A stretch of DNA of 64,000 bases from assembly GCA_949320185.1 (NCBI GenBank), contig CASGHK010000047.1:1-64000 (forward strand), written 5' to 3'. Shown here one piece after another: positions 30,625 to 36,972 of the stretch (positions within the stretch are counted from its first letter, which is position 1; every line of letters begins with the position of its first letter). This DNA comes from an uncultured Methanomicrobiales archaeon. GTDB lineage: Archaea; Halobacteriota; Methanomicrobia; Methanomicrobiales; Methanospirillaceae. Both the position numbers and the translations under genes were made by a program. The notes beneath the pieces are model-generated. The model saw nothing but the letters and a program-made list of their open reading frames with translations. It was not told where the DNA came from and made no database searches.

Positions 30625-31128
30625 CTAGAACGAGAATGGCTGACGTTCGCCGCCGCCGTCGCGACCGAGCATCAGCGTCCCGTTCTCTTTGTACGACTTC
30701 ATGATGATGTGCGTCGCGGTCTCGCGAATCCGCTCCATCGGGGCGATGTGCTCGGAGACGAACCGGGCGATCTCCTGCATGTCCCTGCCCGTGACCAGGA
30801 CGTGGAGGTCGTAGGTGCCGGTGATCAGCCGAACGGACCGGACCTCCTCGAAACGGGCGATTCTCTCCGCCAGCCGGTCGTAGCCGTGATCCCGCTCGGG
30901 CGAGACCTTCAGCTCGATGATCGCCGAGACCTCCGCCTGGCCGGAGCTGCTCCGGTCCACGATCGCGGTGAATCGCCGGATCACGCCCTCCGCCTGGAGG
31001 GTGCGGATCCGCTCTTCGACCTCGGCGGCCGGAACCCCGAGCATCGCGGCGAGCTCCGGCGTCGGGATGCGACTGTTCTCCTCGAGCAGGTGTACGAGCG
31101 TTGTATCGGTTGCGTTCATGATTTCCAT
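30625..31128 (-). CDS. Lrp/AsnC family transcriptional regulator
   Basis: MNATDTTLVHLLEENSRIPTPELAAMLGVPAAEVEERIRTLQAEGVIRRFTAIVD; start overlaps the cdc6 stop. Confidence 0.85.
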   Translation of the reverse strand: MEIMNATDTTLVHLLEENSRIPTPELAAMLGVPAAEVEERIRTLQAEGVIRRFTAIVDRSSSGQAEVSAIIELKVSPERDHGYDRLAERIARFEEVRSVRLITGTYDLHVLVTGRDMQEIARFVSEHIAPMERIRETATHIIMKSYKENGTLMLGRDGGGERQPFSF

Positions 31129-32426
31129 CACCACCGGAGTGTCTTCTTGACCCAGGTCTTGTCCATCTGGGCGAGGCCCTGTCCGGTCAACCGAGGGTCC
31201 TTCGTGATGACCTCCTGGATCTTGCCCGAGTTCGCATCGAACCACATCTCCTTGGTCCGGCCGTAGCGTCCGCGCGAGACAACCCGCGTGTTGATCACGC
31301 CGAGCATGTTCAGCTCGCTGATGAGGTCGGTGATCCGCCGGTTGGTCAGGACGTCCAGTTCGAGCGCTGCCGCCACCTCCTGGTAGACCCTGCAGACCTC
31401 GCCCGAGGTGAAGATCGCCTGACCGAGCTGCTCTAGCAGGATCATCGAGTAGAGCACAACCTTCGACTGGGTCGGCAGAGTGGAGATGCACTCGATCATC
31501 GAGTCGGTCTCGATCTTCGCCTGGGCCAACTTGACGTGCCGTTCCCCAACCTCCTGGGCTGACTCGCGCTCGGCGAGTTCCCCCGAGATACGGAGGAGGT
31601 CGAGGGCTCTCCGAGCATCGCCGTGCTCCTGCGCCGCAAGCGCCGCGCAGAGCGGGATCACCCCCTCGTCGAGAGTGTTCTCCATGAACGCCCCCTCTGC
31701 GCGCTGCAGGAGGATATCGCAGAGCTGCGGAGCGTTGTACGGAGGAAAGACGATCTCCTCCTCGGAGAGCGAGGAGAGGACCCGGGGGTCGAGGAAGTCC
31801 TTGAAGGAGAGGTCGTTGGAGATCCCGATGATGCAGACCTTGGAGGCCTTCAGGTCCGAGTTGATCCGGGTCAGGTTGTAGAGCGTATCATCACCGCTCT
31901 TCTTGACGAGCTTGTCGATCTCGTCGAGCACAATGACGAGCACCCCACCTCGTGCTTCGAGCTGGTTCTTCAACTCGAGATAGACCTGGTCGGTCGGCCA
32001 GCCGGTCATCGGGATGTGGGGTCGGAGCTTATCCGACGAGATCTCCTCCGGGTGCTCGATGTCCTTCGCGATCTGTGCGAGCACCCGGTACTGGGTGTCG
32101 ATCACCTCGCAGTTGATGTGCACCACCGTGCAGAGCGAGGTCTGGTTCGAGGCCGACTCGAGCTCGCTCCCGACGTACCGGACGCACGCTGTCTTTCCGG
32201 TCCCGGTTTTGCCGTAGATCAGGATGTTGGACGGCGTCTCATTCCGGAGAGAAGGAGCAAGAATTGAGGCAATCTCATTGATTTGAGGCATCCGGTGCGG
32301 TAGAATCTGGGGACGGTACGAGTGCCGCAGCACCTCCCGGTTTCTGAAGATCCGCGCATGCTCGGTCAGGTACTTCTTGAAGAGACCGAGAGAAGGATTC
32401 TCACTGGGCGGGGGGTCCTGAGTCAT
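31128..32426 (-). CDS. cdc6: Orc1/Cdc6 replication initiator (AAA+ / winged helix)
   Basis: NILIYGKTGTGKTACVRYV Walker A, VIVLDEIDKL Walker B, IIGISNDLSFKDFLDPRVLSSLSEEEIVFPPYNAPQLCDIL. Confidence 0.95.
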   Translation of the reverse strand: MTQDPPPSENPSLGLFKKYLTEHARIFRNREVLRHSYRPQILPHRMPQINEIASILAPSLRNETPSNILIYGKTGTGKTACVRYVGSELESASNQTSLCTVVHINCEVIDTQYRVLAQIAKDIEHPEEISSDKLRPHIPMTGWPTDQVYLELKNQLEARGGVLVIVLDEIDKLVKKSGDDTLYNLTRINSDLKASKVCIIGISNDLSFKDFLDPRVLSSLSEEEIVFPPYNAPQLCDILLQRAEGAFMENTLDEGVIPLCAALAAQEHGDARRALDLLRISGELAERESAQEVGERHVKLAQAKIETDSMIECISTLPTQSKVVLYSMILLEQLGQAIFTSGEVCRVYQEVAAALELDVLTNRRITDLISELNMLGVINTRVVSRGRYGRTKEMWFDANSGKIQEVITKDPRLTGQGLAQMDKTWVKKTLRW

Positions 32427-32432
32427 GTGCAC

Positions 32433-33537
32433 TGGAAGTTGTACATTTGCATTCGGTCTCTATTAAGGTGATCCAGCTCATCGACCGTGGTTTCGAGAAC
32501 CCCCCTGTTTCCAGTGGAGTATCCGGAGTGCCGTTGTTGAACCGCGATCTTCTCCAATCCGATTCGTATGGGCGAGGACCCCATCGTTTCCACTGGAGGT
32601 CGATCTCAGATCGGGATCCACCGGTGCGGAAACGGATTCAGCGGAGTGTCGCAACCGACGTCGGGTATCCTTCATGCAAAAGAGAGAACCGATCGATCTC
32701 GTGATCGGGGATCCGACCCCCACCCCTTTGTTTCCTGTGGAACGTGTGGAGACGAGGATGACGATCTCGTCCTCTATATCATGAGAACGAGCATTTGGTA
32801 ATTATCGCTCTTCGACTACAAAAACCTGATCAGAAAACAGACCGAAAATTCACAGTAAAACGGGTGACATACCGGAAAACCAAGGTCCGAACCGGAAAAA
32901 GTTCATCGAAAACTGTCGTTTTGGACGGTGATAGGAGCGGTCGATCGGGCACGACCCGGGTGATAAGACCGGAGCAGGATAGAAAAAGACTCGAATACCC
33001 GTGATCGGAAAACCGGAAAAGTACGATCAAACCGGATCAAGAGAGAGAACGAACCACTCTTCGAGTGTGGTTCTACCCTCGGCAGGACAGGATCGACCAC
33101 CCGTAAATGGTCGATCGTACCAGTGGAGAGGCGCCATTGCCATCATGGAAACTCGAACATTTAATGGAGAAGGAAGAGTGGTCGAGCGACGTACGGCTCT
33201 GCACCACCAGCTCATCTCTCCTGATCCAGCCCGATCCAGGCCTGTCAGTTGTGGGATCGAAAGACCATATTCGACGATTTTTGACGATCTCTCGTGAATT
33301 CGAGCGTAGCGTTCAAGACCTGGAGCCTCTCCTCCTCTCTTATCTGTTTGCCAGATCACGCTCTGCACCAGTGCCTGCTATCATCCTTGGATTTTCCACT
33401 GGAAACGAAGGGGTACCCCTCAAACGTCGCGGATTGGTGAAAGCAGGAGCGTGGGCAGGCGTTTCAACCCGGCACCGAAATCGGAGCGATCCAGGTACGA
33501 TCCCCCCTCACGCGGGCTGGAACCTTCATCAACGATC
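32433..33537. other. Probable chromosomal replication origin (oriC) with ORB-like elements
   Basis: Intergenic region upstream of cdc6; ORB-like ccccctgtttccagtggag, ccccatcgtttccactggag, cccctttgtttcctgtggaac in one orientation and ttttccactggaaacgaaggggta in the other, flanking an AT-rich stretch. Confidence 0.85.
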
Positions 33538-34044
33538 ATGGACCATGGATCTTTCATGGATCCGACGCATCGAGGACCAGTTGAGGTCCGGGCAGGGGTC
33601 ATCACGGTCTCCTCGACACGCACGGAGGCGACCGATTCGAGCGGAGCACTGATTCGGGAGCGGTTCGAGACCGCTGGACACCGGGTCACGTACAGCACGA
33701 TCGTCCCCGACACCCGGATCGAGATCCGACGTGCGATCCTGCAGGCGCTGGAGTCGGCGAACTGCATCGTACTCTCGGGGGGTACGGGTCTGACCCACGA
33801 CGACTGCACGATCGAGGCGGTCTCTCCGCTCTACGAGAAGGCGATCGACGGGTTCGGCGAGGTCTTCCGGTCCAGGAGCCTCGCGGAGATCGGGACTGCA
33901 GCGATGCTCTCGCGTGCCTCCGCCGGTATCATCGCGGGTGCCGTGGTCTTCTGTATCCCCGGGTCCACCGGGGCGGCGCGCCTCGCCCTCGATGACCTGA
34001 TCCTCCCCGAGGTCGGTCACATCCTGACCCACGCGAACCGCTGA
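33538..34044 (+). CDS. moaB: Molybdenum cofactor biosynthesis protein MoaB/MogA family
   Basis: AGVITVSSTRTEATDSSGALIRERFETAGH, IVLSGGTGLTHDDCTIEAV, IPGSTGAARLALDDLILPEVGHI. Confidence 0.9.
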   Translation: MDHGSFMDPTHRGPVEVRAGVITVSSTRTEATDSSGALIRERFETAGHRVTYSTIVPDTRIEIRRAILQALESANCIVLSGGTGLTHDDCTIEAVSPLYEKAIDGFGEVFRSRSLAEIGTAAMLSRASAGIIAGAVVFCIPGSTGAARLALDDLILPEVGHILTHANR

Positions 34045-36884: not shown

Positions 36885-36972
36885 GACCCCTTCTTCGCCA
36901 GTGGAGCGACGAAGAGGCGCCGCCGGTTCGGGGTATCGGTGGTGAAAAACACGGTATTGGTCTCCAGTGGAA
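36885..36972. promoter_or_regulatory. Two ORB-like sequences in the hel308/KH intergenic gap
   Basis: ccccttcttcgccagtggagcg (36887-36908) and tctccagtggaac (36961-36973). Confidence 0.45.

Follow-up and report, generated by a model that had tools for sequence, protein, structure and literature searches.

A predicted orc1-adjacent replication origin in a Methanomicrobiales archaeon and a conserved module inside its inner ORB

The intergenic DNA between an orc1/cdc6 gene and a moaB-like gene in an uncultured Methanomicrobiales archaeon raises two questions: does chromosome replication start here, and if so, does the site hold anything that other archaeal origins do not? The window analysed is a stretch of 64,000 nucleotides of one contig, to which all coordinates refer. 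From its sequence, the intergenic region is predicted to be the chromosomal replication origin (oriC), with a probability of about 0.93; this figure applies to the origin and not to the role of the module described below. Judged by the features that can be tested, the predicted locus belongs to the orc1-adjacent origins of the oriC1 type and is ordinary among them. Provisionally, only the module is new and not the type of origin. An experimentally mapped origin for this methanogen group was not found in the literature, and the predicted oriC is useful chiefly for annotating the group.

The initiator gene and its ORBs

The features of the locus are collected in Table 1. The solved chains nearest to the Orc1/Cdc6 product are 2QBY_A and 2V1U_A, which are Sulfolobus Orc1-1 and Aeropyrum ORC1, respectively. 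Relatives of the gene are found in records from the Methanomicrobiales (Methanoregula, Methanolinea, Methanoculleus and similar), and an initiator gene of this type directly adjoins the ORBs, as is seen in oriC1-type origins. On the other side, the true start of the moaB-like gene is uncertain and lies at about 33538-33556, with the profile match running from residue 45 onward. Open reading frames within the intergenic DNA were considered as genes and rejected, as they have no Pfam match and their span lies mostly in a segment that is unconserved within the genus. Two short stretches hardly vary within the genus: the ~40 bp that immediately precede cdc6 (32433-32473) and CTGGAACCTTC upstream of the moaB-like gene (33517-33527). 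Both are probably promoter or leader sequence.

Table 1. Coordinates of the features of the predicted origin and its surroundings in the window
Feature	Position	Strand	Evidence and remarks
orc1/cdc6 initiator gene, Orc1-1 type	31128..32432	(-)	434 aa; NCBIfam NF001625 E=5.3e-177; Pfam Cdc6_C + Cdc6_lid
ORB1	32500-32521	(-)	24.0 bits; closest to cdc6, G-string toward the gene; kept in 7/7 same-genus genomes
ORB2	32579-32600	(-)	27.9 bits; fits published Methanomicrobia ORB expression exactly; kept in 7/7 same-genus genomes
ORB3	32723-32744	(-)	32.5 bits; inner cdc6-side ORB; kept in 7/7 same-genus genomes as CCCCCACCCC or a near variant
Probable duplex unwinding element	32745..32861		GC 41%; low nearest-neighbour stability; conserved block in same-genus alignment
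Inverted repeat GACGAG...CTCGTC	32751..32771		Directly inside ORB3; position conserved in the order, sequence differs between genera
Box 1, AGCATTTGGTAATT	32790..32803	(+)	45 bp inside ORB3; order consensus AGCCATTTGTAAAT; window joint score 20.7
Box 2, GACTACAAAAACCTGATC	32814..32831	(+)	Order-wide matrix; order consensus ACTATAAAAATTAATCGA
Lineage-variable spacer, ~520 bp	32866..33385		Unconserved within the genus
ORB4	33392-33413	(+)	32.9 bits; moaB side, opposite orientation; exact Ori-Finder 2 motif; kept in 7/7 same-genus genomes
Palindrome AGGGGTACCCCT	33409..33420		ORB4 G-string and its inverted copy
moaB-like gene	33451..34044	(+)	MoCF_biosynth PF00994 1.5e-29; bounds the origin
Degenerate ORB-like satellite	36887..36908	(-)	12.1 bits; directly before the hel308 start codon

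Written as 22-bp sites with the G-string last, the ORBs form a set of three minus-strand sites on the cdc6 side and one plus-strand site on the moaB side, with all G-strings pointing outward. The strings quoted in the preliminary description were all found: CCCCCCTGTTTCCAGTGGAG at 32500, CCCCATCGTTTCCACTGGAG at 32579, CCCCTTTGTTTCCTGTGGAAC at 32723, TTTTCCACTGGAAACGAAGGGG at 33392, AGGGGTACCCCT at 33409 and ACCAGTGGAG at 33119. The last of these had been put forward as a weaker site; its score is not that of an ORB and it sits in a segment that is absent from or unconserved in the other genomes of the genus, so that the claim falls away. The 12-bp palindrome said to contain the ORB4 G-string is present. 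Its core, GGGGTnCCCC in GGGGTACCCC, occurs in six of the seven same-genus genomes and is not general across the order. The G-string of ORB3 is followed by TGGGGG, which is mostly kept within the genus.

The four ORBs stand well clear of chance. They were scored with a 22-bp matrix whose 193 training sites come from the DNA upstream of cdc6 in relatives outside the window's own genus, and the next-best score in the 64 kb is 12.1 bits. When the same matrix was run over 60 Markov-1 random sequences of 64 kb, the mean maximum was 7.5 bits and the highest 18.0. A search of the whole 2.12-Mb assembly for TTCCASTGGAAACNNNGGGG with at most one mismatch returned the four ORBs only, and the reversed pattern, used as a control, gave no match. 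The Methanomicrobia ORB expression published with Ori-Finder 2/DoriC is TCCA[GC]T[GT]GAAA[CT][AG]A[AT]GGGGT (PMC4164010); ORB2 and ORB4 fit it exactly. Here, as in oriC1-type origins, multiple ORBs match the consensus of the clade.

The layout is also conserved. Each of the seven genomes of the genus has three minus-strand ORBs and one plus-strand ORB. At least one ORB site within one mismatch is present in 199 of the 232 genomes of the order, for which the reversed control gave nearly none. Among the 68 loci of the order whose upstream DNA extends to 1 kb or more, the patterns read from the gene outward are '--+' (47), '--++' (9), '---+' (7), '---+++' (2) and '--+-+', '-+' and '-' (1 each). 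The gap between ORB3 and ORB4 is 647 bp in the window, and the inner gap ranges from 104 to 896 bp in the order. The preliminary description had proposed opposed ORBs around an unwinding region beside orc1/cdc6, and this arrangement is borne out by the Orc1-1-type gene and by the order-wide conservation of both sites and orientation.

The unwinding region and the case for an origin

An AT-rich core between the ORBs had also been described, and this holds in part. The GC content falls to 41% at 32750-32849, against ~65% for the whole window, but the intergenic DNA is not uniform and is 47-57% GC over most of the remainder. The 50-bp windows of lowest stability in the intergenic region begin at 32772-32811; by nearest-neighbour values, the stability here ranks among the lowest ~0.5-0.8% for the 64 kb. 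The origin did not stand out, however, when melting was compared over the whole window, as less stable spots occur at other places in it. In the seven-genome alignment, a conserved block runs from ORB3 to ~32831. The spacer beyond it (32866-33385) is missing from four of the genomes (G213, G214, G216 and G218) and is replaced by unrelated sequence or tandem repeats in two others (G215 and G217). The unwinding region is thus probably confined to ~100 bp beside ORB3 and does not take up the whole gap between ORB3 and ORB4. Tandem repeats fill the spacer of G217, where repeats of ~43 bp with ORB-like cores lie within the origin spacer, 696-824 bp upstream of cdc6 (L011, on contig G217:C36).

Inverted ORBs that flank an AT-rich unwinding region are characteristic of oriC1-type origins and are found here and in the relatives. 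The same is true of Haloarcula hispanica oriC1, where an AT-rich region lies between two inverted ORBs with G-strings (PMC3936714). Predicted Methanomicrobia origins in Ori-Finder 2/DoriC likewise are intergenic, beside cdc6, and carry the ORB expression with its G-string; in the part of that account available, the ORB motif alone is given, and the hairpin and two-box module described below are not there (PMC4164010).

The preliminary description had looked to GC skew over the genome for a signal at this locus. In two closed relatives such a signal is present, weak but rightly placed, on or close to the orthologous locus, whereas neither the 64-kb window nor the full 137-kb contig shows a switch at the origin. 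Skew was computed on 40 sampled stretches of 20 kb in each relative. In G158 (2,542,943 bp, with cdc6 at position 349), the half that follows the locus has a skew of +0.0065 and the half that precedes it one of -0.0084 (permutation p 0.005), and the cumulative minimum falls at the orthologous locus, with p=0.20 for the amplitude alone. In G197 (2,922,917 bp, with ORBs at either end of the record), the corresponding values are +0.0143 and -0.0100 (p 0.0026), and the sampled, detrended cumulative minimum is ~0.2 Mb into the first half. As the permutations ignore autocorrelation, the skew is supportive and not decisive.

A purely regulatory role for the ORBs must be weighed here. The sites could form an Orc1-dependent control region for cdc6 and moaB, with replication starting elsewhere; ORB1 is indeed near the cdc6 start, and ORB-like sites are known away from origins, as in the hel308 satellite and at G000:C7:22815. 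Against this, the ORBs are inverted around the least stable intergenic DNA in a layout conserved across the order, the skew changes polarity at the orthologous locus in both closed genomes and the assembly contains no further ORB cluster. We regard a regulatory role alone as very improbable.

How the predicted origin would work follows from established studies of Orc1-1. These show that one Orc1 binds each ORB with fixed polarity, that inverted ORBs direct MCM to the DUE and that replication is bidirectional (PMC12141716, PMC4010727). By analogy with the solved homologues, Orc1 from the neighbouring gene would bind each ORB in the window with fixed polarity. As the ORBs are opposed across the unwinding region with their G-strings outward, Orc1 on ORB3 and ORB4 would bring MCM to the DNA inside ORB3. 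The helicases would then be placed on the AT-rich stretch just inside that site, melting would begin beside ORB3 with the assistance of the module, and two forks would leave. ORB1 and ORB2 lie shortly before cdc6, and Orc1 bound to them may in addition control its own gene.

A hairpin and two-box module inside ORB3

In almost every locus, a module consisting of a hairpin and two boxes is found directly inside the innermost ORB on the cdc6 side. Its spacing is constrained: within ~40 bp of the ORB comes an inverted repeat, then AGCCATTTGTAAT, then 9-13 bp, then ACTATAwAAAnnnATCGA. The inverted repeat is carried by the order-wide data, as the window has a short stem of 6 bp that by itself falls short of significance (p~0.13). 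At the position of the repeat, the mean DNA-fold z across the order is -2.2 relative to dinucleotide shuffles and -2.8 relative to mononucleotide shuffles. Control values lie between ~0 and -0.6 for other offsets; they are -0.24 and -0.03 on the two sides of the plus-strand ORB and -0.44 inside ORB1, so that among the offsets compared the hairpin signal is confined to the inside of the inner ORB. Among 66 loci, 30 have a best stem with p<=0.05, where ~3 would be expected. Strict-register covariation of the stem among the seven sequences of the genus is modest to weak.

An inverted repeat is also known from the ORBs of H. hispanica oriC1, where it acts as an enhancer (PMC3936714). There, the repeat is G-rich and split over both ORBs, whereas the repeat described here is a local hairpin inside one ORB and its sequence is genus-specific. 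The palindrome of the window differs as well, since GGGGTACCCC lies outside ORB4 and the Haloarcula enhancer repeat lies inside the ORBs (PMC3936714).

Box 1 is at +40 to +49 from the inner ORB and box 2 follows after a gap of ~9-13 bp in almost every locus; the letters ACTAnA..AA of box 2 are invariant in all seven same-genus genomes. Motif training gave 9.2 and 11.5 bits for the two boxes, and shuffled sequences at most 6.3 and 6.7. The boxes were then scored with a joint matrix held out block by block, over ~2,900 positions on both strands. The best hit was at the expected place, at rank 1, in 61 of 63 loci, and the window's own boxes rank 1 of 2,446 positions when held out. In 800 kb of the G158 chromosome, both strands included, three scores of at least 15 and none of at least 18 were obtained, which rules out the module as a common promoter or nucleoid-protein site. 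Outside the order, the matrix places a hit at rank 1-4 of 4,510 and at the same offset in seven loci from other families of the phylum (L156, L162, L163, L164, L166, L168 and L170). The matrix search did not find the module in families f8, f15 and f17 or in some loci of f7.

An AT-rich composition could by itself account for the module. If so, the module would be DNA favoured for melting, without a sequence-specific partner. The AT-rich box 2 and the lowest stability of the intergenic DNA in this region speak for it, but box 1 holds G and C at fixed positions, the spacing is constrained and rank 1 in 61 of 63 held-out loci was reached even though these intergenic regions contain much AT-rich DNA. 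This explanation, which bears on the module alone, is unlikely.

A promoter is another alternative for the module alone and is compatible with the locus as an origin. Here, box 2 would be a TATA box on the minus strand and box 1 the start, 24-25 bp downstream of it; the transcript would run toward cdc6 and have a hairpin at its 5' end. The alternative is real because the distance between the box starts, ~24-26 bp, fits TATA-to-start spacing, and in most genera box 2 looks like TATATAA. Six of the seven same-genus genomes, however, have a box 2 that resembles ACTACAAAAA or ACTAGAAAAA, which is a poor TATA box. Neither strand is preferred in RNA folding (p=0.13), for which reason an RNA hairpin was rejected, and a crude test finds another TATA-like hexamer closer to cdc6 in 56 of 85 loci. 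We consider a promoter unlikely.

Instead, we think it somewhat more probable than not, by analogy with ucm/UBP in Sulfolobus, that the module eases local opening of the DNA and/or binds a factor that helps MCM to start. Going further, we tentatively propose that origins of the Methanomicrobiales, and apparently of some other Halobacteriota, could contain an undescribed replicator element, a counterpart of ucm that is read by an origin-activation factor. In this equally tentative view, the element would comprise the sequence-variable inverted repeat together with the two-box motif and its fixed spacing, inside the ORB on the cdc6 side. A description of the module was not found among openly licensed papers, and its novelty is provisional.

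The comparison with Sulfolobus is one of description and not of sequence letters. In oriC1 of that genus, inverted ORBs surround a DUE that contains a short conserved motif, ucm, which is essential in vivo (PMC12141716); mutations in it abolish oriC1 firing (PMC12141716). A short conserved motif inside the DUE is present here too. In Sulfolobus, the ORB3-DUE-ORB2 unit is 130 bp with ucm midway, whereas here two boxes and an inverted repeat sit beside one ORB. A ucm-type motif has hundreds of further chromosomal sites, in contrast to the few high scores of the module in the 800 kb of G158. According to the same source, the ubp gene is a recent acquisition in Desulfurococcales and Sulfolobales, and that 2025 paper raises the question of whether other archaeal lineages have analogous factors (PMC12141716). 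Origin melting and MCM activation are unsettled in archaea, and the module is of more importance than the origin itself. As a 14-bp and an 18-bp target with constrained spacing, it can be tested by mutation and by DNA-affinity purification.

ORB-like sites and a second Orc1/Cdc6-like gene

The assembly is 84% complete, so that a second origin could be missing from it. It does contain a second Orc1/Cdc6-like gene (G000:C49:47801-48814, L148), which is 29% identical and has related copies in the genus. This gene was considered as the mark of a second origin and rejected, as no ORB-like site above 2 bits was found in the 17 kb around it.

The satellite before hel308 has counterparts in relatives. 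There, an ORB half-site, AGTGGAA..AAGGGG, precedes the hel308 start at ~+4.0 to +4.5 kb from cdc6 (L013, L014, L033, L052, L073, L077-L083, L089 and L090), and in many relatives the copy at this place is stronger than that in the window. The half-site may tie Orc1 to the expression of hel308.

Most of a set of Methanoculleus-type loci (L070, L073, L074, L076-L085 and L088-L090) carry a second inverted pair of ORBs. The pair lies past the cdc6 block, away from the origin, at ~-3.06 and -3.28 kb, with the two sites ~214 bp apart across a GC-rich spacer, and is possibly an Orc1 titration site. It recalls the ORB cluster downstream in H. hispanica, oriC2D, in being a further inverted set beyond cdc6, but it consists of two ORBs only and is absent from the window (PMC3936714). 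Finally, an isolated and strong ORB-like site of 20.8 bits, without a G-string, is found elsewhere in the assembly (G000:C7:22815-22834, L149:4814), where the nearby open reading frames are mobile-element-like.
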